Shown here: positions 5,112-63,575 of the stretch, one piece after another | Position numbering within the stretch: the stretch's first letter is position 1 | How the letters are laid out: every line of letters starts with the position of its first letter | Assembly: GCF_004345665.1 (NCBI RefSeq) | Contig: NZ_SLWR01000016.1 | Coordinates: 62,001-126,000, forward strand | DNA from: Kribbella antiqua | Lineage (GTDB): Bacteria > Actinomycetota > Actinomycetes > Propionibacteriales > Kribbellaceae | DNA length: 64,000 bases | Direction of reading: 5' to 3' | Program-made: the position numbers and the translations under genes | Notes under the pieces: generated by a model | What the model was told of the DNA's origin: nothing | Databases searched by the model: none | What the model saw: only the letters and a program-made list of their open reading frames with translations

Positions 5112-5187
5112 CGACGTCCTCGCTTCGCTCCGGGCGCCGATGAGGCGCGAATCAGCTGTGCCGTCTTGATGCCCTCGCTCCGCTCGG

Positions 5188-5925: not shown

Positions 5926-5981
5926 GTCGCAGAGCCTAGTCAGCCCGTTTCTGGCCTCGAACGCCCGGGTACCGGCCAAAA

Positions 5982-8809: not shown

Positions 8810-8932
8810 GAGGGAAACCTTTCCAACGGTATGGGCGGACGCACCCGAGGCTGGCTGCCCCAGGGATACCTGTGCCTTCGTGAAGGTAGCCGACAAAAGG
8901 CCGACCGGTGACCGCCGCGTGTCGCCGGACGG

Positions 8933-17359: not shown

Positions 17360-17427
17360 ACGCTCAATCCTGCCTGACGCAGCCAACGATCGCATGCCGA
17401 CCCGGTGTAGTCAGTAGGCTCGAGTAC

Positions 17428-17817
17428 ATGGCGGGTGCGACGGGTGGGAAAGGCAAGCTGGCCAAGAACCTGGTCAAGTACGGCGTGCGGTACGGGCCGC
17501 TGGCGGTGGAGGCGATCAAGCATGGTCGCGAGCCGGCGCAACAGGCGGTCCAGGCGGCGCTGGCGAAGCGCACGGCCCGGAAGAAGGCGCTCGAACATGC
17601 TCTCACCGTCCGCGACGGGTCTTTGCTCAAGGTGATCAAGGACGGTCAGGCGATCTTCTTCGTCTTCAGCGGCGACGCGATCGTCACCACCTACCCGCCG
17701 GTCCCGGCGAACACCTACCCGGAGCTGCTCCGGCACGCCGACCTGGACAAACGCGACCCCGCCGCCGTCCTCGCCGCCCGCAAACCCAAACTCATCCCCA
17801 CCCTCCGCCGCCGCTGA
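17428..17817 (+). CDS. Conserved hypothetical protein, basic N-terminus
   Basis: This 129-residue protein begins with a glycine- and lysine-rich segment (MAGATGGKGKLAKNLVKYG), then a basic helical region (AALAKRTARKKALEHALTV) and a C-terminal beta part (GQAIFFVFSGDAIVTTYPP). The length and positive charge suggest a nucleic-acid or membrane-surface association, but no family is recognised. It lies divergent from the helical hypothetical gene and 101 bases before the ACT/GNAT gene. Confidence 0.75.
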   Translation: MAGATGGKGKLAKNLVKYGVRYGPLAVEAIKHGREPAQQAVQAALAKRTARKKALEHALTVRDGSLLKVIKDGQAIFFVFSGDAIVTTYPPVPANTYPELLRHADLDKRDPAAVLAARKPKLIPTLRRR

Positions 17818-17918
17818 CAGCCAAAGCCGACATCTTGACGCGGGCGTAACATTGCGGACCCGGTGAGGCAACAGGCGGACCGCAGTCTGGAAGGACGCTT
17901 ACGAGGGAGGGCGTCCGC

Positions 17919-44604: not shown

Positions 44605-44766
44605 GGCGTGTCTCCTCATCTCGTGCGTGCTGCGCGGCACTCGGCGGCGCATCTCGCTGCACCGGACCGAAGGCCACGATGCTCCGCATCGAGACCTCCG
44701 CTCCGGCACACCGATATACACCACCGAGCACCTGCTCGCGACTGCACGAGATGAGGAGACACGCCC
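44604..44766. repeat. 163-bp hairpin element (MITE-like) between two acyl-CoA dehydrogenase genes
   Basis: The two ends are perfect 23-bp inverted repeats: 44604-44626 starts GGGCGTGTCTCC, 44744-44766 ends GGAGACACGCCC. The inner 43 bases of each arm pair with 32 matches, and the centre is GATGC-TCC-GCATC at 44678-44690, so the entire element folds on itself. It has no coding capacity. The left end shares the stop codon of the upstream gene; the right end supplies GGAG and stops 2 bases before the next ATG. No clear target-site duplication is seen (TTA / TGA flanks). Confidence 0.8.
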
Positions 44767-44768
44767 TG

Positions 44769-45968
44769 ATGATCAACCTCGAGACCCCGCGGAAGTTCCG
44801 GGCCTTCATCAACCAGGCGCATCAGGTGGCGGCGGAGATGCTGCGGCCGAACTCACGCCGCTACGACCTTGCCGAGCACGAGTATCCGGTCGAGCTCGAC
44901 ATGCTCGCTGCTCTCGTCGACGGTTTGGGAGCCTCGGGCAACGGCGCCGGTGCGGGTGCTTCCGGCGTACGTCGTACCGCATCAGCCGATGAGGTCGTCA
45001 ATGGGTCGAACCTGTCGTCGGTGTTGTCGATCATGGAGATGTGCTGGGGCGACGTCGGGCTGCTGCTGTCGATGCCGCGGCAGGGGCTCGGGAACTCGGC
45101 GATCGCTTCTGTTGCTTCGGATGAACAGCTTCGTCGGTTTGCTGGTGTTTGGGCCGGGATGGCGATCACGGAGCCCGGGTGTGGGTCGGATTCCGCGAAC
45201 ATCCAGACGACTGCGCGGCTCGACGGCGACCACTACGTGCTGGATGGCGAGAAGATCTTCGTGACCGCCGGCGGCCGGTGCGACGCGGTCGTGGTGTGGG
45301 CGACGCTGAACAAGTCACTCGGCCGGGCCGCGATCAAGTCCTTCGTCGTACCGAAGGACACGCCGGGTCTGACGGTCGAGCGGCTCGAGCACAAGCTGGG
45401 CATCCGCGCCTCCGACACGGCAACGATCCGCTTCGAGAACTGCCGCGTGCCCGCGGAGAATCTGCTGGGCTCGGCTTCTATCGACAGGGGCTTCGCCGGT
45501 GTCATGCAGACCTTCGACAACACGCGACCTCTAGTCGCAGCGATGGCCGTCGGCTGCGCTCGTGCTTCGCTCGAACTCACCCGCTCGCTGCTTGCTGAGG
45601 CTGGAGTCGATGTCGACTACGACCGTCCGGTCCACCTCCAGCCGGCGGCCGCGGCGTCGTACCTTGCCATGGAATCCGACTGGGAAGCTGCCTATTTGCT
45701 GACCCTGCAGGCCGCCTGGATGGCCGACAACGCCGCGCCCAACTCCCTCCAAGCCTCCATGGCCAAAGCCAAAGCCGGCCGCACCGCCAACGACATCACC
45801 CTCCGCTGCGTAGAACTAGCCGGCACCCTGGGCTACTCCGAACACGAACTCCTCGAAAAATGGGCCCGAGACTCCAAGATCCTGGACATCTTCGAAGGCA
45901 CCCAACAAATCCAGCAACTGATCGTCGCCAGACGGCTCCTGGGGAAGACCTCCGCCGAGCTGAAGTAG
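44769..45968 (+). CDS. Acyl-CoA dehydrogenase family protein 2
   Basis: A 399-residue acyl-CoA dehydrogenase. It has the flavin/substrate motif MAITEPGCGSDSANIQTTARLDGDHYVLDGEK, FVTAGGRCDAVVVWATL, GIRASDTATIRFENCRVPAENLLG and the C-terminal DSKILDIFEGTQQIQQLIVARRL with the catalytic-type Glu in FEGT. It retains the canonical active site that protein 1 lacks, so the two may form one enzyme. The ATG at 44769 follows the hairpin element, and the GGAG 14-11 bases upstream comes from that element's right arm. Integrase follows on the other strand 39 bases on. Confidence 0.93.
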   Translation: MINLETPRKFRAFINQAHQVAAEMLRPNSRRYDLAEHEYPVELDMLAALVDGLGASGNGAGAGASGVRRTASADEVVNGSNLSSVLSIMEMCWGDVGLLLSMPRQGLGNSAIASVASDEQLRRFAGVWAGMAITEPGCGSDSANIQTTARLDGDHYVLDGEKIFVTAGGRCDAVVVWATLNKSLGRAAIKSFVVPKDTPGLTVERLEHKLGIRASDTATIRFENCRVPAENLLGSASIDRGFAGVMQTFDNTRPLVAAMAVGCARASLELTRSLLAEAGVDVDYDRPVHLQPAAAASYLAMESDWEAAYLLTLQAAWMADNAAPNSLQASMAKAKAGRTANDITLRCVELAGTLGYSEHELLEKWARDSKILDIFEGTQQIQQLIVARRLLGKTSAELK

Positions 45969-46007
45969 CCTTGTCTGTAAGGGATTCCCGCGTCCTGCGT
46001 GGCAGTG

Positions 46008-47321
46008 TTAGATCAGGCCGGGACCGGCCTCAAGTTCCTCGTACGGGGCGCCTAGATCGGCCCTGCTCCGTGACTGCTCCGTCAGCCGCAGAGCGAGTCG
46101 CTCCAGGCGACGGTCGATTGCGTGCCGAGCACGGTCGTAGGACGACGGGAGCATATGGGTGTACATCTGTAGCGTGAACCCGGGGTCATGGTGACCGAGA
46201 TACTCGGACAGCTCTTTGATGTTGACCCCGTCCGCCAGGGTGATGCTGGCGAAGTAGTGGCGCAGCGCATGCAGACCGGTCGTACGGTCGGACTTGAAGC
46301 GTAGGCGACCTCGATTGTCCTTGACAGGCGGCGGGATGACGCCAGCCGCTACGAGCGCAGGTTTCCACACCACCAAGTCATACAGGCGGGCCCGGAGCTG
46401 TTTGCCGTCCGACCAGGTGAAGAGGAGGGCGTGATCCTGGATCTCGCCATCGAGCCGCTCCCACGGCAGCGAGATGGTCGTCGTGCCGAAACGCTCGATG
46501 TGCTCCTCGACCACCTTTCCCAGGTACGCCGACATGGGAACGATGCGTTCTTTGTCGTTCTTCGGGAGAGCGAAGACGAACTCCCTGCCGAGCCGCTTCA
46601 CCTGACGCCGAACCCTGATGACCTGCTCTTCGAAGTCGAAGTCGTCCACAGAGAGCCCGAAGATCTCGGCCTGACGCAAGCCGGCTGCCGATCCAATGAT
46701 CGGAATGAGCCTGAACTCCTCGGGATGCGCCTCGATGATGCGGTCGACCGTCTCGTCCGACCAGGCGACGACCTTCGAGAATCGTCTGGCCGGCTTCTTG
46801 ACGATCCTCGACTGGCCCGGATTGCGCTTGATGAGTTCGTCGGCGACCGCGAGTTCGAGGCACCCGTTGAGCACCAGGAACGCGCCGCGAGCGGTCGAGG
46901 GACCGTGCGCGCTGATGAGATCGGTCAGCCAGACGGCGATCTCTGACGGCACGATGCTCTTGACCATCCGCCGCCCGAACATCGGCTGGACATGTAGCCG
47001 CCACTTCGACTCGTACTGGATCTCACTGGCGGGGTCGACGGTCCGGGACCCGATCCACCGTGGCCAGAGCTCGTCGAGCCGTGCCTTGCCGGCGTTCGGA
47101 TCGAGATAGTCCCCACGATCCCGATCGGTCTCCATGCCCGTGGCGTACTGCACCGCTCTGACCTTCGTCTCGAAGGCCTTCGACCTCTCCTTCCCGTGCG
47201 GATCGATCCAGACACCCAGCCACCTCTTCCCCCGCCCCCACCGCTTCTCATCCCGCTCCCGCTTCACAGTGCCGTCGGCCTGCTTGACCGCTTTCGTCCA
47301 CTGATCCTTCGCAAACGCCAC
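46008..47321 (-). CDS. int: Tyrosine recombinase/integrase of an integrative element
   Basis: A 437-residue phage-type integrase: a basic N-terminal arm-binding segment (RERDEKRWGRGKRWLGVWID), a core-binding SAM-like domain, and the catalytic domain with the first Arg in AAGLRQAEIFG, a Lys-containing beta hairpin (ALPKNDKERIVPM), HxxR in GLHALRHYF, LGHHDP and the Tyr nucleophile in LQMYTHML. GTG at 47321 with GGGAGG six bases before it is the best start; a TTG/GTG pair upstream at 47351/47348 is possible. It marks the left end of the mobile region; no tRNA gene adjoins it. Confidence 0.92.
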   Translation of the reverse strand: MAFAKDQWTKAVKQADGTVKRERDEKRWGRGKRWLGVWIDPHGKERSKAFETKVRAVQYATGMETDRDRGDYLDPNAGKARLDELWPRWIGSRTVDPASEIQYESKWRLHVQPMFGRRMVKSIVPSEIAVWLTDLISAHGPSTARGAFLVLNGCLELAVADELIKRNPGQSRIVKKPARRFSKVVAWSDETVDRIIEAHPEEFRLIPIIGSAAGLRQAEIFGLSVDDFDFEEQVIRVRRQVKRLGREFVFALPKNDKERIVPMSAYLGKVVEEHIERFGTTTISLPWERLDGEIQDHALLFTWSDGKQLRARLYDLVVWKPALVAAGVIPPPVKDNRGRLRFKSDRTTGLHALRHYFASITLADGVNIKELSEYLGHHDPGFTLQMYTHMLPSSYDRARHAIDRRLERLALRLTEQSRSRADLGAPYEELEAGPGLI

Positions 47322-47455
47322 CTGCAACCTCCCAGTTCGTTGACCCACCAACCGTGGTCAACGCAGGGCGAGAGGAAGGATCGAACTGGCAGCCTGTGGA
47401 TAACTCGACGCCTTGTCGCCGCAGGAGCGGCCTGCGGCCCCAGCTCGCACAGAAA

Positions 47456-51816: not shown

Positions 51817-51840
51817 TCCCTGATGTTCGGATCCAGGTTC
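51817..51840 (+). repeat. Conserved intergenic motif, copy A
   Basis: Copy A of a 24-25-base motif with core ATCCAGGTTC, located 33 bases upstream of the first toprim-type gene. It aligns with copies at 52814, 53202 and 55273. Possible operator, promoter element or duplication scar. Confidence 0.6.
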
Positions 51841-51872: not shown

Positions 51873-52783
51873 GTGAATGTTCCATCGGTGTCAAAGGCGG
51901 AGCGTCGACGGCTGTTGGAGGCGAACCTGGCCGCGACCCGGTTCTTCCGCAGGGAACTGTTGCGCGCAGATCGTGGTTGGGCGGCGCGGTACCTGGAGGC
52001 GCGAGGCGCAAGGCGCGTGTTGACTCCTGAGTCTCGGTGGGCACTCGGGTATGCGCCGGACTCGTGGTCGCGGCTTGTCGATCATTTGCGATCGCGTGGC
52101 TTCGAGTTCCAGACCCTCGAGCTGGCTGGTCTGGCGATGAGAACCGCTGAGGGGCAGATCGTCGATCGGTTTCGGGATCAGTTGATGCTGATGTCGCGGG
52201 ACGAGGGCTTGGACCCGGTCGGGTTCGTTGGTTTTCGGGACGGCGCGCGGCCGTTCTACACGACGACAGCGGTGACGCCGGTGCATCGTCGATCGAAGGT
52301 CCTGCTTGGCGTTGATGAGCAACTGGATCTGCTGTCCGGCGGTGCGATTCCTGTTCTCGTCGATGATCCGATGGACGCCGTCGCGGTCGAGAAGGTGAGC
52401 CGCCTCTCGCTTATAGGTGGGTCGGGATCCCATTGTGTGGTTCGTTGTTGTCGGCGGCGCAGGCGAGAATGCTCGGTCGTCATTCCGCCGCTGAGACAGT
52501 GATCGTCGTATTGAGTGACGCTCGCGAAGGGCAGCGCGCGGCCGCTGGGTATCTGGCTGATCTCTCGCGGTTCTTCAGGCGAGTCCATGCGGTCGAACTG
52601 CCGGCTGGTCAGACGCTGGCGGCGCTCCATCTGCCGGAGGACGGGGATCAGCAGTTGCAGGACGTGCTGCTCGCCACCCGACCGCTTGCCGACTATCGAT
52701 ATCCGTCGCAGCAGGCCACGACGGCGCACGCGCTGGAGCTGTTGTCAGATCCAGATCGTCCAGGGCCTTCACCTGATCTCTGA
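51873..52783 (+). pseudogene. DnaG-core/toprim protein copy 1, frameshifted and lacking catalytic acids
   Basis: Residues 1-180 in one frame (RRLLEANLAATRFFRRELLRA, ARYLEARGARRVL, LGYAPDSWSRLVDHLRSRGF, DRFRDQLMLMSRDEG, VLLGVDEQLDLL, IPVLVDDPMDAVAVEK) continue in another frame near 52410 (RWVGIPLCGSLLSAAQARML, VIVVLSDAREGQ, LADLSRFFRRVHAVELPAG) to 52783. It is homologous to copies 2 and 3 nearby. The toprim Glu is Asp (VDDPMDA for VEGxxDA), and the DxD motif is gone (LSDAREG), so it is degenerate besides being frameshifted. Confidence 0.7.
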
Positions 52784-52813
52784 TTCTGCGCGCACGTGGA
52801 CTGGACGGAGCAG

Positions 52814-52837
52814 TCCTGGATCCTCTCATCCAGGTTC
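52814..52837 (+). repeat. Conserved intergenic motif, copy B
   Basis: Copy B, ending CATCCAGGTTCT, 34 bases upstream of the ATG at 52871. It is the least similar copy in the middle, with the left TCCTGGAT and the right arm conserved. Confidence 0.55.
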
Positions 52838-52870
52838 TGTTCTTCGACTGCCGAGGTGATCGTCGAGATC

Positions 52871-53182
52871 ATGAGTGAAACGAGATCTGCGGGCGGCGAT
52901 ACCGATGAAGATCGGCCAGGAGCGGAGACGAAGCAACCACTGCCCGTCTGGTCCGTGCGTCGGGCTATCGAGTTGCTCGACGACGCCATAGATCGGATGG
53001 GTGAGCAGCTCGCGCGTTCGGCGGGACTCATGTCGGTCGGATCGAACAGGTCGTCCATCGACGAGTCGTCATCCGGCGCGAAGCAGCGCAGCTGGAGAGC
53101 CAACGCGGCGAGCTCAGCTTCGTCTGAGGCCGACGCTCTGCTGTATGAGTCATCGGCTTCGTACGAGCGGGAGATGCCGTGA
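52871..53182 (+). CDS. Hypothetical protein between toprim copies 1 and 2
   Basis: A 103-residue acidic, serine-rich protein (MSETRSAGGDTDEDRPGAETK..., then helix VWSVRRAIELLDDAIDRMGEQLARS, and a Ser-rich tail). No family is recognised. It begins soon after motif copy B and ends 19 bases before motif copy C, so it is framed by these motifs. An in-frame GTG upstream at 52796 would add 25 residues. It may be a small partner of the toprim proteins. Confidence 0.55.
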   Translation: MSETRSAGGDTDEDRPGAETKQPLPVWSVRRAIELLDDAIDRMGEQLARSAGLMSVGSNRSSIDESSSGAKQRSWRANAASSASSEADALLYESSASYEREMP

Positions 53183-53201
53183 CTGCGGAATGCCGCGGAT
53201 G

Positions 53202-53226
53202 TCCTTGATCTCGTGATCACGGTTCT
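53202..53226 (+). repeat. Conserved intergenic motif, copy C
   Basis: Copy C (starts TCCTTGAT, ends GGTTCT) differs from copy D at five of 25 positions. It lies 60 bases before the toprim copy 2 start. Confidence 0.55.
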
Positions 53227-53286
53227 GGCAAGGCCTTGGTGAGGAGATCTTCGAGGTCGTGAGGTTCTACGGCTTCGGAGGGATTC

Positions 53287-54201
53287 ATGAGTGACCCGGG
53301 TTTTGCTGTGTCGGTGGAGGAGCGGCGGCGGTTGCTGGAGGCAAACGTTGCGGCGAGTCAGTTCTTTCGCCGGGAGTTGCTTCGGGCAACGGGTGGATGG
53401 CCGCTGCGGTATCTGACCGATCAGGGTGCGAGAGAGGTTCTGAGTACCGAGTCCATTTGGAAGATCGGTTATGCGCCGGATTCGTGGACTCGGTTGGTTG
53501 ATCATCTGCGGGAGCAGGGTTTCAGCTACGGCACGCTGGTGCGGGCTGGGTTGGTGGAGTGGACCGATGAGGGTGAGGCAGTCGATCGGTATCGCGATCA
53601 GTTGATGTTGGTCGCTCGTGACCAACGTTCGGCGCCGGTCGGGTTCATTGGCATCGGACCAGACGGTCAGGCGAGGTCGGTGACTCCGACGACGGCGATT
53701 CATCGTCCGTCGAACGTGCTGGTTGGTGTGGACGAGCAGCGGGTGCTGCTCGGTGATGGTGCGGTGCCGATCATTGTTGACGATCCGATGGATGCGATCG
53801 CGATCTCAAAGGTCAGCCGCCAGGCTCGAGGTCGGTGGGCTGGGATCCCGGTGTGTGGTGCCGGGTTGTCGACGGCGCAGGCGAGGATTCTGAGCGGGGC
53901 CAGTGTTACCGACACTGCCGTGGTCGTGCTGTCCGGTGGTGATGCGGAGCGACGGCAGACCGCTGGGTATCTGCTGGATCTGGCGTTCTTCTTCGATCGT
54001 GTGCGAGTCATCGGTCTGCCGCCGGGGCAGACGCCGGCGTCGCTGTATCTCACCAAGAACGGTCCTCAGCAGCTGCGCGAGGCGTTGGAGACATCGCGTC
54101 CGCTGGCTGACTACCGCTCCAGGCGGTACGTGGCCGTAACGCGTCGGTTGAGGACTCCGGATGCAGATCCAGATCCACCGGCCCGGGGACCGGGGCTGTG
54201 A
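53287..54201 (+). CDS. DnaG-core/toprim protein copy 2, degenerate active site
   Basis: A 304-residue protein with the same architecture as copies 1 and 3: a DnaG-type N-terminal core (RRRLLEANVAASQFFRRELL, IWKIGYAPDSWTRLVDHLREQGF, YRDQLMLVARDQR) and a toprim segment (AVPIIVDDPMDAIAISK, VVVLSGGDAERRQ). In toprim, Asp replaces the metal-binding Glu (VDDPMDA), and the DxD motif has become SGGD. It has no zinc finger and no helicase-binding domain. It is probably a catalytically inactive paralogue; it may bind copy 3 or DNA. It ends inside copy 3. Confidence 0.75.
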   Translation: MSDPGFAVSVEERRRLLEANVAASQFFRRELLRATGGWPLRYLTDQGAREVLSTESIWKIGYAPDSWTRLVDHLREQGFSYGTLVRAGLVEWTDEGEAVDRYRDQLMLVARDQRSAPVGFIGIGPDGQARSVTPTTAIHRPSNVLVGVDEQRVLLGDGAVPIIVDDPMDAIAISKVSRQARGRWAGIPVCGAGLSTAQARILSGASVTDTAVVVLSGGDAERRQTAGYLLDLAFFFDRVRVIGLPPGQTPASLYLTKNGPQQLREALETSRPLADYRSRRYVAVTRRLRTPDADPDPPARGPGL

Positions 54202-55279
54202 TGTGTCCGAGCACGCGCAACTCATCCGGGTGCACGAGGTCGCGGCAACGTTCTATCGGCGAGAACTCATCAACACACCCGACGGCTGGGCCGCTCAGCA
54301 CCTGAGGGATCGCAAGCTGGACGGCGTTCTCGCGCCAGGGTCGCCGTGGCGGGTGGGCTATGCCCCGGATGGGTGGTCGCGGCTGGTTGGCTACCTGCGG
54401 CGGCAGGGCTTCGACGACAAGGTTCTGCTGGATGCCGGACTGGCTTCGCCGACGAGGAACGGGTATCTCATCGACCGTTTCCGTGATCGGATCATGTTCG
54501 TTGCCTGTGACATCGACCTGCATCTGGTCGGGTTTGTCGGCAGAGCTCGCGGCGACCGGGTGCGCTACCTGAACACGCCGACCACGGCGATCTACAGGAA
54601 GTCGCATGCGTTGGTCGGTCTCGATGCGCAGCGCGATCGGCTTGCTTCGGGCGCCGTTCCGGTGATTGTCGAGGGAGTGCCGGATGCGCTCGCCGTTGGC
54701 CAGCTGGGTGCGAACTGGGCAGGGGTTTCGGTGTGCGGTACGGCGATCACGCGCCAACAGGCGCAGGTGGTCAGGCGGCACGCAACGACCGACGCGGTCA
54801 TCGTCGCGCTCGACGGTGACTTCGCTGGCAAGACGGGTGCTGTCCGGAGTCTCGACGCCTTGTCCGCGGTGTTCGACCAGGTGCTCGTCGCGGACCTGCC
54901 GGCCACACTGGATCCGGCATCCGTCTTCGAGAAAGATCCGGACCGTCTGCTAGCTGCCTTGAGTGCGCCGCGTCCGCTGGTCGACCTGGCGATCGAGATG
55001 GAGCTGGCGCGCTGGGATCGCGTCCGCGATCACATCAGTGGGCAGGTGAACGCCGTACGAGCCGTGGCGCCACTCGTCTCACGACTTCCAGCCAACCGTG
55101 TCGCCAGCGAGATCGCCAGATTGTCGAGGGCGCTGCGACTGGACTCGGACATCGTGTCGCGCGAGGTACTCGCGGCTGTCGGCCTGCGGACCGAGCAACG
55201 GCAAGTTCGGCGTCGGGCCAGCCGGAGCGCTGATGCCGCGGATGCAGCAGCCGATCCGGACTGTTCCTGGAGTCCTTGA
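54161..55279 (+). CDS. DnaG-core/toprim protein copy 3, catalytic residues intact
   Basis: A 372-residue primase-like protein. The DnaG core (FYRRELINTPDGWAAQHLRD, WRVGYAPDGWSRLVGYLRRQGF, LIDRFRDRIMFVACDID) and the TPTTAIYRKSHALVGLD strand are followed by toprim with VIVEGVPDALAVGQL (catalytic Glu) and VIVALDGDFAGKTGAV (DxD). A C-terminal helical region (about 265-372) could bind a helicase. No zinc finger is present. It overlaps copy 2 by 41 bases. The element probably uses it for replication or lagging-strand priming after transfer. Confidence 0.82.
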   Translation: MQIQIHRPGDRGCDVSEHAQLIRVHEVAATFYRRELINTPDGWAAQHLRDRKLDGVLAPGSPWRVGYAPDGWSRLVGYLRRQGFDDKVLLDAGLASPTRNGYLIDRFRDRIMFVACDIDLHLVGFVGRARGDRVRYLNTPTTAIYRKSHALVGLDAQRDRLASGAVPVIVEGVPDALAVGQLGANWAGVSVCGTAITRQQAQVVRRHATTDAVIVALDGDFAGKTGAVRSLDALSAVFDQVLVADLPATLDPASVFEKDPDRLLAALSAPRPLVDLAIEMELARWDRVRDHISGQVNAVRAVAPLVSRLPANRVASEIARLSRALRLDSDIVSREVLAAVGLRTEQRQVRRRASRSADAADAAADPDCSWSP

Positions 55280-55297
55280 TTTCGGAATCCAGGTTCT
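55273..55297 (+). repeat. Conserved intergenic motif, copy D
   Basis: Copy D (TCCTTGAT...GAATCCAGGTTCT) overlaps the stop codon of toprim copy 3 (TGA at 55277-55279). It lies 89 bases before the likely start of the next gene (55387). Confidence 0.55.
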
Positions 55298-55386
55298 TGC
55301 CCGTGGCAATGGCCAGCAGATTTGTGTCACCGCAGTACGACGAGGGGCACCTGGCAGCTCCTCCTTCCCCGAGACGGAGTCAATCG

Positions 55387-56112
55387 ATGGACGTTGAGCT
55401 GGAGGAACTCATCGCCGAGGCGGACAATTCGAACTGGGCCGGTGAGCCGTCGCGGCGACTCGCCGACGGGATCGAGGCGCAGATCGTCGCCCCGTTGTCG
55501 AGCCGCCTGACGGTCGCGCTCGGGCGTGACGAGGCGGCGCAGCTGGCCAGGACGATCGCGTGGGAACGCTGTCGTGAGCTTGCCGTCCGCCGCCCGGAGG
55601 CAGGGGTGTCCTGGGGCTATCTGGCGAATCTGGTCCGCTGGCGGCTGATCGACGTGCTGCGGGCTGAGGTCACGCGGCGGCAGCGTCACCCGCTGACCGA
55701 CCGACTCCCAGAGCGTGAGGCTCCGCAGGTCCTGCCGCTCGGGCCGTGCTTGGAGCGGATCGCGCTCGAGCTGGATCGCGTCGGTCTGCCGGCGTCGGCG
55801 GCGCGACGGTTCATCCGAGTAGCGGCGGATGGTCCGCCGTTCTACCGCTCGGCGATCGTCAACCGGCTCCGGCTGGCCGGCGCACTGCGCTCCCAGGCCG
55901 AGGGCTTCGTGTGGTTGGTGCGGGGCGGTGCCGCCAACCGCTCCGCGCTGGCCCGGTTGGCCACCGGGGAAAGTCCGACAGAGGTCTTCAAGGATCCCGT
56001 CGTACGACGCTGGGTCCTAGCGGCCGCAGGGCTTGACCTCAGCTTTTCGGGCGGAGACACCGGCCTGTTACGGCGGCGGGCAGCGCGATGGGAGCTGGCC
56101 CGAACCGCCTGA
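55387..56112 (+). CDS. Sigma-70-region-2-like protein of the mobile element
   Basis: A 241-residue protein (ATG at 55387; TTG/ATG upstream possible). The N-terminal half has DEAAQLARTIAWERCRELAVR and SWGYLANLVRWRLIDVLRAEVTRRQRH, patterned like sigma-factor region 2. The middle (LGPCLERIALELDRVGLPASAARRFIRV) and C-terminal part (FVWLVRGGAANRSALARLATGE) are helical, with no clear region 4. It could be an element-specific transcription factor acting on the motif seen four times upstream (inference). Family membership is not certain. Confidence 0.6.
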   Translation: MDVELEELIAEADNSNWAGEPSRRLADGIEAQIVAPLSSRLTVALGRDEAAQLARTIAWERCRELAVRRPEAGVSWGYLANLVRWRLIDVLRAEVTRRQRHPLTDRLPEREAPQVLPLGPCLERIALELDRVGLPASAARRFIRVAADGPPFYRSAIVNRLRLAGALRSQAEGFVWLVRGGAANRSALARLATGESPTEVFKDPVVRRWVLAAAGLDLSFSGGDTGLLRRRAARWELARTA

Positions 56113-56311: not shown

Positions 56312-56905
56312 GTGAAGCAGCTTCTGCGATCGCACGTGATGATCCCGATCGTCATCCTGCTCGGGATCATTGCCTTGATCCTGGGGTTGATCGCCCGCTG
56401 GCATGACTCACCCGAACAGGCCACGCCCACCGACGGGCAGAGCGCGTCGACCGAGGAGCCGGCACGGCTGGATGCCTGGGCGCGGCCCACGACGACAGAT
56501 CCGAGGGAGATGGCGATCGCCTATGCCCGGGCGATCTGGACCTACGACACGTCGGTCCACAGCTACTTCGAGTGGCAGGACGCGGTCAGCGTCTTCGCTG
56601 ATCCAACCGGTGACAGTCCCCGCGTCGCCAAGAGCCTGCTGCCGATGTGGTCGGAGTGGAAACAGCTGGAGCTGCACAAGGCTCGTGCCAGCGTCGAAAG
56701 CGTCACCGCCGAGACCACTCCGGAGCTGACAGCCATGCAACACAACGGGCAGGCGCCGAATGGTTGGACGGGGTACGTCGTACGTGGCAAGCAGACGGCT
56801 GTTCTCGACACCGAAACGAAGGTCGTTGACCGGCAGGCAGCGGTCGGCATCGTGTGCTCCTCGATCTGCAAGTTCTGGTCCGCGACCGCGCAAGTGTCCC
56901 CGTGA
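56312..56905 (+). CDS. VirB8-like bitopic T4SS protein
   Basis: A 197-residue protein with a single N-terminal membrane helix (VMIPIVILLGIIALILGLIARW), a linker and an extracellular NTF2/VirB8-like domain (DPREMAIAYARAIWTYDTSVHSYFEW..., YVVRGKQTAVLDTET). In conjugative type IV systems the VirB8-type subunit scaffolds the inner-membrane complex. The fold assignment is by layout and position. The stop overlaps the next start (GTGA). Confidence 0.65.
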   Translation: MKQLLRSHVMIPIVILLGIIALILGLIARWHDSPEQATPTDGQSASTEEPARLDAWARPTTTDPREMAIAYARAIWTYDTSVHSYFEWQDAVSVFADPTGDSPRVAKSLLPMWSEWKQLELHKARASVESVTAETTPELTAMQHNGQAPNGWTGYVVRGKQTAVLDTETKVVDRQAAVGIVCSSICKFWSATAQVSP

Positions 56906-57426
56906 TCGGCAAGGTGGCCCTCGCCGGCGCGCTCCTGGCCGGCGGGGTCTGCCTGATCCCGCCGCTCGCCCTAGCCAATGCCGGCGCTGACGCACCCGTG
57001 GCTCAGGCTCAGGCGCCGTACGACGACAAGACGCAGCTGCCTGGTGCGGCAGCAGCGGTGCAGCGGGCGCACGAGCTGGTCGGCAGCTACGGCTACTACC
57101 AGCTGTGCGCTCGCCTGGCCGCGAACATCTGGGGCCGCCCACGCGCCGGCTACTTCTCGGCGGCCGAACAGTGGCGCCAGATGGTTGCCACCGGCAATGC
57201 GCACCGCGGCGACCGTCAGCCACCGGTCGGCGCGCTGCTGTTCTGGGCGACCGGCGGACCGTACGGCCATGTCGCGGTGTACGTCGGCAACGGCCGCATC
57301 GTCTCCAACGACATCAACGACGCGGTGCCCGGCGAAGGCGGCGTCTACCTGGTCGAGATCGGCCTCATCGAATCCAAGTGGAACGCGACCTATCTCGGCT
57401 GGGCCCCGCCCATCTACTCAACCTAA
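56902..57426 (+). CDS. Secreted CHAP/NlpC-type peptidoglycan hydrolase
   Basis: A 174-residue exported enzyme (GTG at 56902) with signal peptide VALAGALLAGGVCLIPPLALA. The catalytic Cys is in YQLCARLAANIWG, a CHAP/NlpC-type His in GPYGHVAVYVGNGRIV, and the acidic residue in VSNDIND. It would cut peptidoglycan locally so the conjugation channel can pass the wall, the role of VirB1-type proteins. It is coupled to the VirB8-like gene by overlap and precedes the pilin-like gene. Confidence 0.8.
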   Translation: MIGKVALAGALLAGGVCLIPPLALANAGADAPVAQAQAPYDDKTQLPGAAAAVQRAHELVGSYGYYQLCARLAANIWGRPRAGYFSAAEQWRQMVATGNAHRGDRQPPVGALLFWATGGPYGHVAVYVGNGRIVSNDINDAVPGEGGVYLVEIGLIESKWNATYLGWAPPIYST

Positions 57427-57437
57427 GGACCCCGCAC

Positions 57438-57731
57438 GTGCTCCGCTACATGATCATCCTGCAAGACCCAGGCATCACCCCGAACACCAACGGCCTGCCC
57501 GGGCTCGGCGCCTTCCGCCAATTGGTCGGCGCGTTGCTGACGTTCAGCCTCGTCGCCTGCGTGGCCGCGTTCGTCATCTCGGCCGCGGCCTGGGCGATGG
57601 GCAGCTTCAACAGCAACGCCCACTTCGCCGGCAAGGGCAAGACCGGATGCCTGGTCACCGCCGGCGCCGCGATCCTCATCGGCTCCGCCAACGGGCTGAT
57701 CCGATTCTTCAGCAGCATCGTCCTCAACTGA
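57438..57731 (+). CDS. VirB2/DUF6112-like two-helix membrane protein
   Basis: A 97-residue protein (GTG at 57438 after AAGGAC; ATG at 57450 possible) with two membrane helices (LVGALLTFSLVACVAAFVISAA and GCLVTAGAAILIGSANGLIRFF). The short basic loop between helices (AHFAGKGKTG) suits a pilin-like subunit or the DUF6112 family of actinobacterial T4SS proteins. It sits between the hydrolase and the VirB6-like gene. Confidence 0.7.
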   Translation: MLRYMIILQDPGITPNTNGLPGLGAFRQLVGALLTFSLVACVAAFVISAAAWAMGSFNSNAHFAGKGKTGCLVTAGAAILIGSANGLIRFFSSIVLN

Positions 57732-57747
57732 CCCAGGAGAACAACCA

Positions 57748-58944
57748 GTGGATTGGCCCGCCTGTCTCCTCAACCCAACCAGCTGCGCGGTGTCGTTCGG
57801 CACGGACTTCGCGACGGACTCGGCCTGGAACTCGTTCCTGCGCTGGATGGCCAGCGGCCTGACCGACGTCACGTCGTACGTCTTCCAGGCCTTCAGCCTC
57901 AGTACGGCGCCCCGCTTCGACCAGCAGTGGTGGACCGACAACCTCGCCTTAATGACCGCCGTGTCGCTGCCGCTGCTGGTCGCGGCGTTCGTGCTGCAGT
58001 GCATGTCCGCCGTCGTACGACGAGAACCCCGACGGCTCGGACACGCCCTGCTCGGCGCACTGCTCGGCACAGCCGGCGTGCCGCTCGCGGTCGCCGTGGT
58101 GGCGGGGTGCGGTCAGGCGGTCGACGAGATCTCCCTCGCGATCCTCGGCAACCAGGGAACCTACGACGGGTTGAAGCGGATGGTCGACATCAGCACACTG
58201 CTGACCGCCGGCACACTGGGTGGCTTCCTGCTCACTGCAGTCATCTACGGGCTGATCGCGTCGATCTCGCTGTACTTCGTGATGCTGATCCGCGAGGTGG
58301 CGATCGTCGCGTTTGTCGTGTTCGCGCCGATCGCGATGGCGAGCTGGACCTGGTCGGCGACCAGGCATTGGCTGCGGCGCTGGGTGGAGGTCGTCGGCGC
58401 GCTGCTGTTCTCCAAGATTGCGATGGCTGTCGTGTTCGCGGTCGGGATCTCGGCGACCGGCAACGCCGGCCGGACCGCCGAGCCATCGATCGGAACGTTC
58501 CTGACCGGGATCTTGCTGGTCTCGATGGCGGCGTTCGCGCCGATCGCAACCTTCTCGTTCCTGCATTGGGCCGGCGACCACGGAGCTACTGCGGCGCACT
58601 CGTTGCAGCTGGCGACGGCGGGACCTACCGCCGTGAAGGAGCGGTTCGATCAGGCTCAGCAGTGGGGTGCTCATCACTTCGGCGGATCCGGTGGCAACGA
58701 TCCCGATCCGGTCGTCGGCTCAAGGGACAGCGATGGCGATGAGAATGTCGTCGACTCGGTCAGCAACGGCTTCTCCGGCGGCGGTCCGTCGGACTCGACC
58801 AGCGGCGCAGCGGATTCCTCGGTGGCTGGAGGCGCGGGATCGACGGCGATCGCGGTGGCGACGAGTCAGGTCTCTGGTGACGGGTCGGGCGGTCCACGAT
58901 CGGACAACTCGGGGAACAGGGACTCGCGCGGGGGAGATGACTGA
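57748..58944 (+). CDS. VirB6/TrbL-like polytopic membrane protein
   Basis: A 398-residue protein with seven or so membrane helices (LMTAVSLPLLVAAFVLQCM, LGALLGTAGVPLAVAVVAG, LLTAGTLGGFLLTAVIYGLIAS, VAIVAFVVFAPIAMASW, ALLFSKIAMAVVFAVGIS, GILLVSMAAFAPIATFSFL) and a Gly/Ser/Asp-rich C-terminal tail. This is the usual VirB6/TrbL layout and would line the translocation channel. It begins GTG 16 bases after the pilin-like gene and overlaps the SCO6880-type gene by one base. Confidence 0.85.
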   Translation: MDWPACLLNPTSCAVSFGTDFATDSAWNSFLRWMASGLTDVTSYVFQAFSLSTAPRFDQQWWTDNLALMTAVSLPLLVAAFVLQCMSAVVRREPRRLGHALLGALLGTAGVPLAVAVVAGCGQAVDEISLAILGNQGTYDGLKRMVDISTLLTAGTLGGFLLTAVIYGLIASISLYFVMLIREVAIVAFVVFAPIAMASWTWSATRHWLRRWVEVVGALLFSKIAMAVVFAVGISATGNAGRTAEPSIGTFLTGILLVSMAAFAPIATFSFLHWAGDHGATAAHSLQLATAGPTAVKERFDQAQQWGAHHFGGSGGNDPDPVVGSRDSDGDENVVDSVSNGFSGGGPSDSTSGAADSSVAGGAGSTAIAVATSQVSGDGSGGPRSDNSGNRDSRGGDD

Positions 58945-60383
58945 TGACGACCTCGGAATCGATCTCGACCAGGTTCCCGCGGCCGCAGCGGAACGCCGTA
59001 CTGCTCGGCCTGCGACCGATTCAGATCGCGCTAGTGTGTACGGCGGTTCTGGCGTCGGCTCTGTCGATCTTCAGCCGCTGGACGCTGCCGGTGAAGTTCT
59101 CCGGCCTGCTCCTCGCGTTCCTGTGCGCAGCTGTCGCGTTTGGGCGAGCAGAGGGCCTGCCGGTGTGTCGGTGGCTGCTGCTACGTGGCGCGCACGTATT
59201 GCGATCGCTTCGCAAGCAGCAGTCGTTCCGGGCTCGGGTAGCGGAGCCGAAGCGTCATGGGTTGTTGCAGCTGCCGGGTGAGGGCGGTGCGTTGCGGATC
59301 CTGGAGACCGTGTCGTCGGTGGGCGTCGTCCACGATCCGGTGCGTCGGCGGTTGATCGCCGTAGCGAAGATCGAGGGCCCGGCGCATCTGCTGCAGAACA
59401 CCGATGAACAGGATCGGCGGGTGGCGGCGTACGGGCGTCTGATCGCTGGACTCTGCCACAGCAACCGGATCGCCCGGGCCCAGATCCTCGAGCGCACGCT
59501 GCCTGATCCCGGTGACGAGCTGGGGGAGTGGGCACGTAGGCGCAACGTCGACCCGACAACGCCAGCCGGAGCGATCTACTCCGATCTGCTCGAACGAGCG
59601 GCGCCTGCTGCCGCGCGGCACGAGACGCTGTTCAGCATCGCGGTGAACCTCGACGCCGTGTCGCGCGAGGTGCGCAAGCACGGCGGCGGGATCCTAGGCG
59701 CGACCGCGGTGCTGGAGTCCGAGGCACGCGCGTTCCAGACGTCTCTGGCCGCTGCCGGAGTGATGGGGCGCTGGCTCGGTGTCGGTGAACTCGCGATGAG
59801 CCTCCGCGTGGCCTTCGACCCTGCAGCGACTCGCACTGTCGCCAACCCGGATGAGCTCGACGCTGCCGATGCCGGTCCGCTGGCCGTGGATGCTGCCTGG
59901 GATCAGCTGCGGACCGACTCGTCGTTCCACCGGGTGTATGTGATCTCTGAATGGCCGCGGGTGCTCACGACGCCCTCGTTTCTCAGTCCATTGCTGCTGA
60001 AGCCGGGAATCCGCCGTACGTTCTCGCTAGTGCTGCAGCCGATCCCGATCGCCAAAGCGCTCCGCGACGCGCGCCGGCACCAGGTCGAACGGGTCACCGA
60101 TCGAGCCACCCGAGCCAAGATCGGGCAGCTCGAGACCGAAGAAGACCGCCAACTCGACGCGGACGTCGCCGCCCGCGAACGCGACCTCGCTGCAGGCCAC
60201 GGCGACGTCCGCTGGCTTGGCCTGGTCGTGGTCACGGCCGACACCGAGGAAGCCCTCGACGACGCCTGTACTGAAATCGAGATCGCCGCATCCCAAGCCC
60301 TGCTGGACATGCGGCGCCTCGTCGGCCAGCAGGTCGAGGGCTTCATGGCCGCGGCTCTCCCGTTCGGGGTCGGGCTCGGATGA
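58944..60383 (+). CDS. SCO6880-family T4SS protein (VirB3/VirB4-N type)
   Basis: A 479-residue protein. The N-terminus has two membrane helices (PIQIALVCTAVLASALSIF and KFSGLLLAFLCAAVAF), as in PrgI/VirB3 proteins. A soluble domain without Walker motifs follows, matching the N-terminal VirB4 region (LLQLPGEGGALRILETVSSVGVV..., VARERDLAAG). In actinobacteria the VirB4 function is split between this protein and the separate ATPase encoded next, which overlaps it by four bases. It anchors the ATPase at the membrane. Confidence 0.8.
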   Translation: MTTSESISTRFPRPQRNAVLLGLRPIQIALVCTAVLASALSIFSRWTLPVKFSGLLLAFLCAAVAFGRAEGLPVCRWLLLRGAHVLRSLRKQQSFRARVAEPKRHGLLQLPGEGGALRILETVSSVGVVHDPVRRRLIAVAKIEGPAHLLQNTDEQDRRVAAYGRLIAGLCHSNRIARAQILERTLPDPGDELGEWARRRNVDPTTPAGAIYSDLLERAAPAAARHETLFSIAVNLDAVSREVRKHGGGILGATAVLESEARAFQTSLAAAGVMGRWLGVGELAMSLRVAFDPAATRTVANPDELDAADAGPLAVDAAWDQLRTDSSFHRVYVISEWPRVLTTPSFLSPLLLKPGIRRTFSLVLQPIPIAKALRDARRHQVERVTDRATRAKIGQLETEEDRQLDADVAARERDLAAGHGDVRWLGLVVVTADTEEALDDACTEIEIAASQALLDMRRLVGQQVEGFMAAALPFGVGLG

Positions 60384-61813
60384 GGCAATCAGCCGCGTAC
60401 TACGAACTCGCCGAAACCGACCGCAAGACCCGCAAGGCGAACCGGAAAGCGGCGTACGGCGGCCGACCGCCAACGCCGGCCAAGACGGGCACCGAGCTTT
60501 CGGAAGCCGAGCCGGTCAAGAGCCGCCCGTACGACGCACGCCGCCGGCTGCCGCTGCTGGTCGATACCCACCGCGCGACCACGAAGATCCTCCGAGTCGC
60601 GTACCCGTTTCTCGCCGAGGGCGGACTTGGTGCTGACGGCACCTATATCGGAGCGGACGTCTTCAGCGGCGGATCGTTCGTCTACGACCCCTGGGTCCTC
60701 TACCAGGCCCGAGTCCTCACCAACCCGAACGTGCTCCTGGCCGGCGTCATCGGCAGCGGCAAGTCATCCACCGCGAAGGCCCTCATCACCCGATCCATTG
60801 CCCTCGGCCACAAGGCCTACGTCCCCTGCGATCCTAAGGGGGAGTGGACATCGGTCGCCGAGGCGATGGGTGGCGCGGCGATCAAGATCGGGCCCGGCCT
60901 GCCCACCAGGCTCAACCCACTCGACGCCGGTCGCCGCCCAAGCACTATCGGCCTGGACGAGTGGGACCGCATCGTCTGGTCACGCCGCCGCGCCCTGCTG
61001 GGAACACTGGCTGAGTCGACCCTCGGGCGGCCACTCGCCGCCGTCGAACACACCGTGCTCGACCTCGCGCTGCAGGCCGTCTCCAGCGTCGCGGAGTCGC
61101 CGACGATCCCCGACGTCGTCGTCGCCCTCTTCACGCCCGACTCGGCCTGGGCCGAACGAGCAGGGCTGAAGACGAGCAGCCTCACAACGGACGGCCGGGA
61201 GGTTGCGCACGCGATCAGACGGCTGGTACACGGTGACCTGTCCGGCATGTTCGACGGCCCATCGACCACAACCTTCGACCCCGCGCTGCCGATGGTCACA
61301 CTGGACTCGTCCTGGCTCGGCAGCGGCGGCAACGACGACGCACTCCGCCTCACCCTGGCCTGCGCATCCTCATGGATGGAAGCAGCAGTCGCCGACCCCG
61401 CCGGCGGCAACCGCTACATCGTCTACGACGAAGGCTGGCGCGTCATGCGCGACCCAGCACTGCTCCGTCGCATGCAGGAGCAATGGAAACTGTCACGCGC
61501 CTGGGGCGTCGCCAACGTCCTCATCGTCCACCGCCTATCCGACCTCGCCGCCGTCGGCGACCTCGGATCCGAAGCCCGCGCCCTGGCCGAAGGCCTCCTG
61601 GCTGACTGCTCAACCCGGATCATGCTGCGCCAAGAACCCGACCAGCTCGCCCGGACCGCCACGCTGCTCGGACTGACCGATGTCGAGATCGCGACCATCG
61701 CCAAACTCCCAAAGGGCCGGGCGCTATGGCGGCTGCCGAACCGATCCTTCGTCGTACAACTCGTCCGGCACGCCCGCGAGGTCCAACTGTTCGACACCGA
61801 CGCGCGGATGTGA
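60380..61813 (+). CDS. VirB4-like conjugation ATPase
   Basis: A 477-residue ATPase of the HerA/VirB4 clade, with Walker A GVIGSGKSSTAK, Walker B RYIVYDEGWRVM and downstream IMLRQEPDQLARTATLLGL and LPKGRALWRLPNRSFVVQLV. It powers pilus assembly and substrate transfer. The N-terminal region is short because the SCO6880-type protein supplies the rest. ATG at 60380 overlaps that gene (ATGA); the VirD4-like gene follows five bases after its stop. Confidence 0.88.
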   Translation: MRQSAAYYELAETDRKTRKANRKAAYGGRPPTPAKTGTELSEAEPVKSRPYDARRRLPLLVDTHRATTKILRVAYPFLAEGGLGADGTYIGADVFSGGSFVYDPWVLYQARVLTNPNVLLAGVIGSGKSSTAKALITRSIALGHKAYVPCDPKGEWTSVAEAMGGAAIKIGPGLPTRLNPLDAGRRPSTIGLDEWDRIVWSRRRALLGTLAESTLGRPLAAVEHTVLDLALQAVSSVAESPTIPDVVVALFTPDSAWAERAGLKTSSLTTDGREVAHAIRRLVHGDLSGMFDGPSTTTFDPALPMVTLDSSWLGSGGNDDALRLTLACASSWMEAAVADPAGGNRYIVYDEGWRVMRDPALLRRMQEQWKLSRAWGVANVLIVHRLSDLAAVGDLGSEARALAEGLLADCSTRIMLRQEPDQLARTATLLGLTDVEIATIAKLPKGRALWRLPNRSFVVQLVRHAREVQLFDTDARM

Positions 61814-61817
61814 CCCG

Positions 61818-63575
61818 ATGAACCAACCGAAGAATGCTCCGCCCCGCGATCTCACCGACATGATCTTCATCGGCGGGGGAGTGATCCTCGCCTGCGCTGG
61901 AGTCCTGTACCTGGCCGGCGGCCTCAGCAGCCTCCTGCTCACCGGGAAGTGGATCCGGTCGTCATGGGTCAACGCGCTCAAGGTCACGTTCGACCCACGC
62001 GATCCGGCGTCAGTCTTCGGCGTCGCTAGCCTCAATCCGCTGTTCTACTGGCTGGTGCTTCTCGCCCTGCTCGCGTTGCCTCTGCTCTGTCTGGTCATCG
62101 CAAGCCGACTCCGGCAGGGCAGGGCAGCGGGCATGACCAGCCGGATGAAGGCGGTCGCAGCGCGGCCCGGCCTGGCGACGCGTGCCGACGTCGAAGCGGC
62201 GGTCGGACGTCATCAGGTCGTACGCCGAGGCCGTTCAGCTCGGCCCCTTGCACCGGCACGCTCACCCGAGGCAGTCGGCACGCTGCTCGGTCGTTCCCGC
62301 GGGCGCGGGTGCTGGGCATCCGTCGAGGACTCCGTGATCGTGGTCGGCCCACCACGATCAGGCAAAGGCCTGCACCAGATCATCGGCGCCATCATCGACG
62401 CACCCGGCGCCGTCGTCACCACCTCAACCCGGCCGGACAACCTCGCCGCCACCCTCGAACTCCGCCGGGCCATCGGTCCAGTCGCTGTCTTCGATCCCCA
62501 AGGGCTCGGCAAAGCCGAGGGCATCCGCTGGTCCCCGGTGCGTGGCTGCGAGAATCCCACCACGGCCATGGTTCGCGCCAGTGGCCTCGCCGCCGGCGCC
62601 GGCTTCGCCAAGGGCAACGTGACCGATGGTGCCTTCTGGCACGGTCAAACCGAAATGGCGCTGCGCGGTCTGCTGCACGCCGCGGCCCTCGACGACACCG
62701 GCATCGCCCAGCTCTACCGCTGGGGCCTCGAACCAGCCTCCGCCATCGAGGCCGTTACCATTCTCAACCGCTCCATCGATGCCGCTGAAGGCTGGGGCGA
62801 CACCCTCGACGGCATCGTCCGCATGGACGGCCGAACCCGCGACGCCATCTGGGCCGGCGTCCGCTCCGCCCTGTCCGCGCTCGCGGATCCCGCCGTACGC
62901 AAGGCCTTCGATCCACCACCCGGTGAAGGCCTCGACCCCGCCACGTTCATCCGCGAACGCGGCACCATCTACCTACTCGGCACCGGCGCCGGAGCCAGCG
63001 CCACCTCAGCCTTCATCGCGGCCCTGCTCGAAGACATCACCGAGTCAGCCCGCCAACTCGCCGCCCACAACCCCGGCGGTCGCCTCGAACCACCACTCGC
63101 GCTAGTGCTCGACGAGATCGCCAACCTCTGCGCCGTACCATCCCTGCCCTCCCTCATGGCCGACGGCGGCGGCACCGGCATCACAACCCTCGTCGTCATC
63201 CAATCGCTTGCCCAAGCCCGAGAACGCTGGGGCGAACAAGCCGCCGCAGCCATGTGGGACGCCGCCACCCTCCGCCTCATCCTCGGCGGATCCGCCCAAC
63301 ACCGCGACCTTCAAGACCTCGCAGCCGTCTGCGGCGAACGAGACGAAGAAATCCGCAACTGGAGCCGCGGCGCCGACGGTGGCCGCGCCATCTCCACCAG
63401 CACCCGTCGCATCCCGATCCTCCCGCCGGATGTCATCCGCACCCTCCCCTTCGGCGCCGGCGTCCTCCTCGCCCGCACCGCCCCACCCATCCTCCTCAAC
63501 ATGACCCCCTGGACGGCCCGCCCCGACGCCGACCAAATCCGCCACAGCATCGAGCTCACCAGCAAATCCCAATGA
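61818..63575 (+). CDS. VirD4/TraG-like T4SS coupling ATPase
   Basis: A 585-residue coupling protein. Two N-terminal membrane helices (DMIFIGGGVILACAGVLYLAGGL and PLFYWLVLLALLALPLLCLVIA) anchor it, with Walker A VVGPPRSGKGLHQ, Walker B ALVLDEIANLC and the TraG/VirD4 C-terminal TAPPILLNMTPWTA. It links the relaxosome to the channel and pumps DNA. The start at 61818 is five bases after the VirB4-like stop. The matching relaxase is not in this window and should lie to the right. Confidence 0.9.
   Translation: MNQPKNAPPRDLTDMIFIGGGVILACAGVLYLAGGLSSLLLTGKWIRSSWVNALKVTFDPRDPASVFGVASLNPLFYWLVLLALLALPLLCLVIASRLRQGRAAGMTSRMKAVAARPGLATRADVEAAVGRHQVVRRGRSARPLAPARSPEAVGTLLGRSRGRGCWASVEDSVIVVGPPRSGKGLHQIIGAIIDAPGAVVTTSTRPDNLAATLELRRAIGPVAVFDPQGLGKAEGIRWSPVRGCENPTTAMVRASGLAAGAGFAKGNVTDGAFWHGQTEMALRGLLHAAALDDTGIAQLYRWGLEPASAIEAVTILNRSIDAAEGWGDTLDGIVRMDGRTRDAIWAGVRSALSALADPAVRKAFDPPPGEGLDPATFIRERGTIYLLGTGAGASATSAFIAALLEDITESARQLAAHNPGGRLEPPLALVLDEIANLCAVPSLPSLMADGGGTGITTLVVIQSLAQARERWGEQAAAAMWDAATLRLILGGSAQHRDLQDLAAVCGERDEEIRNWSRGADGGRAISTSTRRIPILPPDVIRTLPFGAGVLLARTAPPILLNMTPWTARPDADQIRHSIELTSKSQ

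Follow-up and report, generated by a model that had tools for sequence, protein, structure and literature searches.

Why should a mobile element carry three genes for DnaG primase cores within a few kilobases, if only one of them still looks able to prime? This question is raised by a 64,000-nt stretch of the 8.1-Mb draft genome of Kribbella antiqua (contig NZ_SLWR01000016.1, here C16, positions 62001-126000; hereafter the window), in which three such genes, called copies 1 to 3 in order of position, head the conjugation operon of an apparent integrative and conjugative element (ICE). A first-pass annotation of the window, made from the letters alone, had described a catalytic primase with two decayed or repurposed duplicates. 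The follow-up reported here points to an old family of non-catalytic relatives, and we give about even chances to the reading that the family of copies 1 and 2 supplies partners of the element's primase, in what would be a physical complex. Coordinates of all features are collected in Table 1; window positions count from the first letter of the stretch, and other loci are designated by L numbers.

All three copies matched the Pfam model DNAG_N and copy 3 alone matched Toprim models; no zinc-finger model was listed for any copy at E 0.01, and across the genome Zn_ribbon_DnaG at E 0.1 found its sole match in the chromosomal dnaG on contig C9. The three DnaG cores without zinc finger were thus correctly recognised in the first-pass annotation; its tandem trio holds for the number of copies but not for their adjacency, as a small open reading frame (ORF) lies between copies 1 and 2 and the array is not strictly three in a row. 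The residues that it had called were likewise read here: at the position of the toprim glutamate, copy 3 has E and copies 1 and 2 have D, and at the DxD position copy 3 has DGD, copy 2 SGG, and the C-terminal piece of copy 1 SDA (by eye). The Asp four residues past the toprim Glu is retained in all three copies and copy 3 also holds the DP aspartate; the combination of catalytic Glu, DxD and lysine is absent from copies 1 and 2. Copy 3 aligns to DnaG by sequence with its catalytic residues included (1dd9 alignment), and scored 158.4 bits against NCBIfam TIGR01391, under the DnaG equivalog cut-off of 283.6. Its ORF spans 54161-55279, and the likely true start is a GTG at 54203, 1 nt past the stop of copy 2. 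Copy 3 (54203-55279) additionally gave weak matches to PADLOC defence-RT models (RT_UG29, 3.1e-12; RTasDnaG-like, 5.1e-8), likely via the common DnaG-like domain. Copy 1 is indeed read in two frames; its break looks like a frameshift or a sequencing error of the draft assembly, and it is the sole broken-looking copy of the three. Programmed frameshifting is unlikely, as no slippery heptamer was seen by eye and the broken copy of another locus (L068) is split elsewhere.

The array was then compared with the Kribbella genomes of the collection (38 in total; the genus is the sole one of its family there). Copy 2 had matches at E ≤1e-20 in 20 of the 38 genomes, and 21 catalytic loci were found, counting the window. 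The tandem set looked for in other elements is widespread: a pseudo-copy adjoins the catalytic gene in 18 of the 21 loci, from 13 species, and genes of a type IV secretion system (T4SS) come next in 17 of these 18, the remaining locus (L069) having a mere fragment of the first downstream gene. Gene order is mostly pseudo-pseudo-catalytic or pseudo-catalytic, and catalytic-pseudo in L064, L065, and L076. Where a pseudo-gene is followed by the catalytic gene, a start codon for the latter is found within -4 to +6 nt of the pseudo-gene's stop at 10 of 12 junctions (exceptions L069 and L072), and gaps between two pseudo-genes are ~70-135 nt if likely starts are used. Pseudo-genes beside a catalytic gene are called paired-type below, and six others (L040, L042, L055, L060, L062, and L068, the last one broken) solo-type.

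Residues are numbered after E. coli DnaG, with E265, which we take to be its toprim Glu, as the anchor. Numbers were counted from this residue along the 1dd9 alignment, and W165, R199, and R201 agree with the numbering of PMC5429622. None of 32 complete pseudo rows keeps K241, E265, D309, and D311 together; when D345 is added, 17 rows keep none of the five residues, 12 keep one, and 3 keep two, while 19 of the 21 catalytic rows keep all five and the other two have DxN. In 33 of 34 pseudo rows another residue takes the place of the metal-binding Glu, the exception being L061, which is cut by a contig end. DGD is intact in three pseudo rows (L064, L065, L076), all of which have Asn in place of the Glu; loss of the Glu may therefore have come first. 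Retention by column was determined for another set of 32 pseudo rows, with L074, L058, and window copy 1 left out: it was 0.00 for R221, N232, K241, and D345, 0.03 for E265, 0.10 for D309, 0.28 for R146, and 0.48 for D311. The eight columns that bind nucleoside triphosphate (NTP) or metal showed lower retention than a further 71 columns that catalytic copies conserve (mean 0.68; p 1.2e-4, relatedness ignored); nucleotide and metal binding were thus stripped selectively. In S. aureus DnaG, R146, R222, K230, and N233 contact the NTP (PMC5429622). The K229 column varies: it holds K or R in 20 of 21 catalytic rows and in 16 of the 26 pseudo rows of the paired type, and Y in all 6 of the solo type; the Asp of ExxxD is retained in 31 of 32 pseudo rows. 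The two arginines of the single-stranded DNA (ssDNA) site were mostly retained (R199, 0.84; R201, 0.91), and mutations of W165, R199, and R201 affect DNA binding by E. coli DnaG (PMC5429622), which makes ssDNA binding by the pseudo-copies possible.

The fold of copy 2 was predicted with AlphaFold2 from a 40-row alignment (mean pLDDT 91.2, pTM 0.86). The first 20 Foldseek matches of the model were all DnaG (best E 5.6e-17, 3b39_B), and a VIA comparison with 5w33 gave Z 27.0 over 267 residues (root-mean-square deviation 2.7). As predicted, copy 2 thus has the fold of the DnaG polymerase domain, as in E. coli (3b39), M. tuberculosis (5w33), and S. aureus (4edg); the alignment consisted mostly of DnaG relatives, so the fold was partly suggested by them. 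A model made without alignment was poor (pLDDT 40.6) and was not used. A different fold for the copies, named in the first-pass annotation as a way in which it could be wrong, was looked for in the model of copy 2 and did not turn up. The chain of copy 2 terminates behind the toprim part, without the ~90-residue C-terminal part seen in copy 3.

A maximum likelihood tree was calculated from 61 rows; ORFs of less than 225 aa, L067, L077, L068_7110, both L057 pieces, L038, and L044_9930 were left out. (L057 7596-9513, in genome G017, is a chromosomal-type DnaG frame split into two overlapping frames.) In this tree, 34 of the 35 pseudo rows form one clade with support of 100/100, and the lone pseudo row outside, L074, sits on a long branch and is probably a separate loss of catalysis. 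Copies 1 and 2 fall on different sub-branches of the pseudo clade, the placement of copy 1 being weak (88/44), and by this phylogeny neither arose recently by duplication of copy 3. As the pseudo-copies of many elements form one clade, the catalytic residues were lost before the elements diverged. Judging from the trees, the pseudo-gene was doubled at least twice separately, in the G006/G028 group and in the G021/G022/G029/G032 group, and its branching orders resemble those of the catalytic gene by eye. Ratios of nonsynonymous to synonymous substitution rates (dN/dS; Nei-Gojobori, pairs of at least 150 codons and at least 60% identity) were 0.10-0.47 in 63 pseudo pairs and 0.13-0.32 in 31 catalytic pairs; the pairs are not independent and dS exceeds 1 in some. 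Going by these ratios, the pseudo-copies have been under purifying selection since the loss. Local duplication with stepwise decay, as first proposed, does not fit an old clade under purifying selection and an open copy 2.

In the reading that we prefer, copy 3 would be the element's own zinc-finger-less DnaG-type primase, and the pseudo-primase family, having shed the ability to bind NTP and metal in a single ancestor and kept the fold and mostly the arginine pair of the ssDNA site, would act as its ssDNA-binding, non-catalytic partners. Judging from the spacing, catalytic and pseudo-copies may be produced in fixed proportion via translational coupling, and the partners may help the primase to hold or choose its template while the single strand of the element is made double-stranded in conjugation. 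More tentatively, we propose a multi-subunit primase of the DnaG family, in which one catalytic subunit and one or two paralogous pseudo-subunits, the latter holding the template in replacement of the zinc-binding domain, would be produced at a constant ratio and act on the single strand that enters during conjugation, the pseudo-primases having later been reused as regulators in the XRE-PCC operons described below.

Several observations weigh against partnership. The complex of copies 2 and 3 is one that we infer. The six solo-type pseudo-genes have no adjoining catalytic gene, and conversely L073 and L075 are full operons with a catalytic primase and no pseudo-copy, and L046 has none up to its contig end, so that a partner cannot be required in every element. 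Broken copies are found in several loci, namely L044 (catalytic, internal stop), L066 and L068 (both pseudo), and the window itself (copy 1). The column statistics treat the rows as if unrelated; counted up from the least retained of 82 columns, R199 and R201 take ranks 43 and 48, no better than average, and W165 is retained at 0.38 (paired type, 12 of 26 rows; solo type, 0 of 6), and with these average ranks and the frequent loss of W165, ssDNA binding is not singled out by selection. Regarding the spacing, a start at +22 in L071 is as plausible as that at +1.

The solo-type pseudo-genes stand in a second context. They come after a gene with an XRE-type helix-turn-helix (HTH) and a PCC-domain gene, all on one strand (in L040, 7263-10207 on the minus strand), and belong to a sister branch. 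The outlier L074 (7453-8565, plus strand, genome G009) also lies behind an XRE homologue (HTH_31 0.00024, under the cut-off). L053 has the XRE and PCC genes with no pseudo-gene behind them in the fetched stretch, and a TrwC relaxase is found in the fetched stretches of L053 and L068. No match to the XRE, PCC, or TrwC proteins of these operons was obtained on C16 between contig positions 42001 and 165000.

Both contexts share a conserved 24-bp site, with a consensus of about TCCTkGAt-N7-wTCCrGGTTC, whose most constant positions were fixed by the search pattern. It lies before 34 of 35 pseudo-genes, L061 having only a variant (by eye), and also before the small ORF, the gene downstream of the array, and some catalytic genes without a close pseudo-gene upstream; it thereby precedes most uncoupled genes of the primase set. 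The loci, 786 kb in all, gave 73 matches, compared to 10 in the reversed sequence, and 67 of the 73 were assigned to a same-strand gene (only same-strand genes being considered), two of which look accidental by position (L045, -12353; L063, +962). A strict pattern had two matches in the whole genome of the window, both in the primase array, and a control pattern had one. An RNA hairpin was rejected: some copies are hairpin-like, but no pair covaries among 60 distinct sites and RNAalifold gave almost no energy, making a DNA site likelier; Rfam gave one sub-threshold match, outside the array. The site is probably a regulatory DNA site. It also bears on the protein tails, where catalytic copies end in Pro (15 of 21) and pseudo-copies in Leu (24 of 30, five broken or cut ones not counted). 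A claim of C-terminal docking motifs was dropped: the -SP ending of catalytic copies is at least partly due to the site overlapping the stop codon, and the -CTG TGA of pseudo-genes before a catalytic gene is partly due to the start of the latter.

The XRE-PCC operons are the main support for a different view, which we consider unlikely if not strongly so: that the pseudo-primases are stand-alone DnaG-fold regulators that bind DNA or RNA and control element genes, perhaps via the 24-bp site, with no complex needed. All six solo-type genes follow XRE and PCC genes in constant order and strand, L074, of probably separate origin, lies behind an XRE homologue as well, and the site is found before pseudo-genes of either context, which keeps a regulatory role among the candidates. 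It explains less well why the last pseudo-gene of the paired type lies a few nucleotides from the catalytic gene, why the window copies gave no Pfam match to an HTH or another additional DNA-binding domain, and why the XRE-PCC pair of L053 has no such gene behind it. Pseudo-primases could also be dominant-negative partners or decoys, which dampen the primase of the element, the host, or a rival, or distract primase-sensing defence. A retained fold with NTP and metal binding lost would suit a competitive inhibitor; the fixed upstream place and close spacing would be unusual where dose should vary, and we regard this as improbable. No PADLOC family matched copy 2 at E 0.001, which says little on decoys.

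Simple decay of copies 1 and 2 as duplicates of copy 3 has the frameshift of copy 1 and the broken relatives in L044, L066, and L068 in its favour, but the frames of copy 2 and most relatives are open and evolve under purifying selection, and the loss is common to one old clade, so we find it very hard to credit. Copy 2 contradicts decay, which is likely for copy 1 alone; of the first-pass proposal of duplication followed by decay or by a switch to a subunit or regulatory role, the co-existence of catalytic and pseudo-copies stands and the switch survives as one option. The chance that the altered residues brought another activity, e.g., that of a nuclease or an RNA-binding toprim protein, seems just as slight: the Asp of ExxxD and, in about half of the rows, D311 persist, which speaks for it, but the Glu is almost always gone, D345 is kept in no row, and D309 in 3.

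DnaG-type primases are usually treated as single-chain enzymes, in which the zinc-binding domain helps to choose the template; this domain reportedly can act in trans if need be. Compared to DnaG, the array copies are without this domain, copies 1 and 2 without the NTP and metal residues, and copy 2 without the C-terminal helices. PriS and PriL, the catalytic and regulatory subunits of another primase type, are not known to be paralogues of each other. Those of archaea and eukaryotes resemble the proposed arrangement in this division of labour and differ in being unrelated to DnaG (PMC5862659). The nearest functional setting is that of the Toprim primases of conjugative elements (TraC1 of RP4, SogL of R64), which are transferred and prime replication after transfer (PMC5512222). 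Like copy 3, these are DnaG-like primases of elements with T4SS-like transfer, and the array genes likewise adjoin T4SS genes; they are described as solo or multidomain proteins (PMC5512222), whereas the array combines a catalytic copy with separate pseudo-copies. Twinkle has similarly lost catalysis and kept a primase-type fold, with a pseudo-primase active site, but is fused to a helicase in one chain, whereas separate genes lie beside an active primase here (PMC9723800). CCPol-MP of SCCmec is a mobile-element primase whose partner protein is required for ssDNA binding and priming; it differs in being an A-family polymerase with an unrelated partner, where here the partner would be a dead paralogue (PMC7581432). 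The open-access papers searched gave no description of a DnaG-type primase whose catalytic gene is joined by separate genes for pseudo-primase paralogues, and neither "DnaG" nor "toprim" occurs in the main text of an actinobacterial ICE survey (PMC3218068). Conserved dead paralogues beside a zinc-finger-less primase would make it possible to test, with two or three genes, what such an enzyme's non-catalytic parts contribute, and if the proposal is true, replication primases would join the enzymes that have pseudoenzyme partners.

Searches beyond the genus covered sampled genomes, with about 5 candidates scored per genome at the order level, 5 at the class level, and 6 in one further search; with so few scored, pseudo-copies may exist elsewhere. 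In 391 genomes of the order (E 1e-22), matches outside the genus had 29-38% identity (best E 1.3e-35), many of them in frames of 1,800-2,000 aa, and in 394 genomes of the class, three from other genera reached 1e-35 with the pseudo profile. VEGxxD is present in 12 of 14 outside loci; in L095 and L097, the motif was missed by the pattern and both show DGD. A viral collection yielded no confirmed relative of the pseudo or the genus catalytic class. Two Micromonospora plasmids hold DnaG cores without the Glu and lysine, by eye. In a wider tree (eight near-duplicate, fragment, or outgroup rows left out; L095 and L097 absent), a single origin of all pseudo-DnaG cores was rejected for these plasmid cores (approximately unbiased test, AU p 0.00013). 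By this phylogeny, DnaG cores lost catalysis at least twice, and probably three times, in the actinobacterial DNA sampled.

Table 1. Features of the primase array, its element, and the plasmid-borne dead cores (window positions unless a locus is given).
Feature	Position	Strand	Basis or remark
Copy 1, N-terminal part, frameshifted pseudo-primase	51873..52502	+	DNAG_N 1.4e-14; motif VDDPMDA
Copy 1, C-terminal part, other frame, without DxD	52433..52783	+	ORF list, reading by eye
Copy 2, intact pseudo-primase, 304 aa, without C-terminal helical part	53287..54201	+	DNAG_N 1.3e-11
Copy 3, catalytic DnaG-type primase core	54203..55279	+	DNAG_N 1.5e-23; Toprim_2 7.8e-12; catalytic residues
24-bp conserved site before copy 1	51817..51840	+	pattern search
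24-bp conserved site before small ORF	52814..52837	+	pattern search
24-bp conserved site before copy 2	53202..53225	+	pattern search
24-bp conserved site overlapping copy 3 stop codon	55273..55296	+	pattern search
Small ORF, likely start 52871	52796..53182	+	weak homologues (26-59 bits) at matching place in other elements
Downstream gene, likely start near 55388	55276..56112	+	synteny
Conjugation operon	56312..63575	+	profile matches, synteny
Tyrosine integrase, probable left end of element	46008..47351	-	Phage_integrase 2.6e-16
Dead core, Micromonospora NBC_00821 plasmid	L194 2860-6810 (NZ_CP108881.1)		start of very large annotated helicase
Dead core, M. maris plasmid	L193 3001-3669 (NC_015409.1)		stretch annotated otherwise

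The small ORF had no Pfam and no PHROG match. The downstream gene was matched in all 20 other catalytic loci, weakly in L069 (44 bits); its Pfam search gave only RsiG (0.0038, under the cut-off), and its likeness to sigma region 2 was seen by eye only. The conjugation operon encodes an unknown protein, a CHAP hydrolase, DUF6112, and SCO6881-like, SCO6880-like, VirB4-like, and VirD4-like proteins, the last of these a coupling protein; the genes from SCO6881-like to VirD4-like span 57748-63575. The element thus holds an integrase together with VirD4-like and VirB4-like proteins, which are among the features of actinobacterial ICEs of the T4SS type. TrwC, the one relaxase type searched for, was matched on contigs C23 and C12 and had no match on C16. 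Past the integrase are acyl-CoA dehydrogenase genes. L077 (genome G013) matches window positions 43276-47351, i.e., the integrase and both flanking acyl-CoA dehydrogenase genes, which perhaps marks a common integration site in another species. Elsewhere in the window genome, a copy-1-like piece beside a VirD4-like fragment (L058 5583-6988, G000:C17) is probably the remnant of a second element. To the right of the window (L078), an AbiJ_NTD5 protein (5e-14), a weak PIN-domain match, and an adjoining TPR protein (3468-9576, plus strand) possibly form a defence island, and a group II intron reverse transcriptase/maturase is encoded at 16779-18608 (plus strand).

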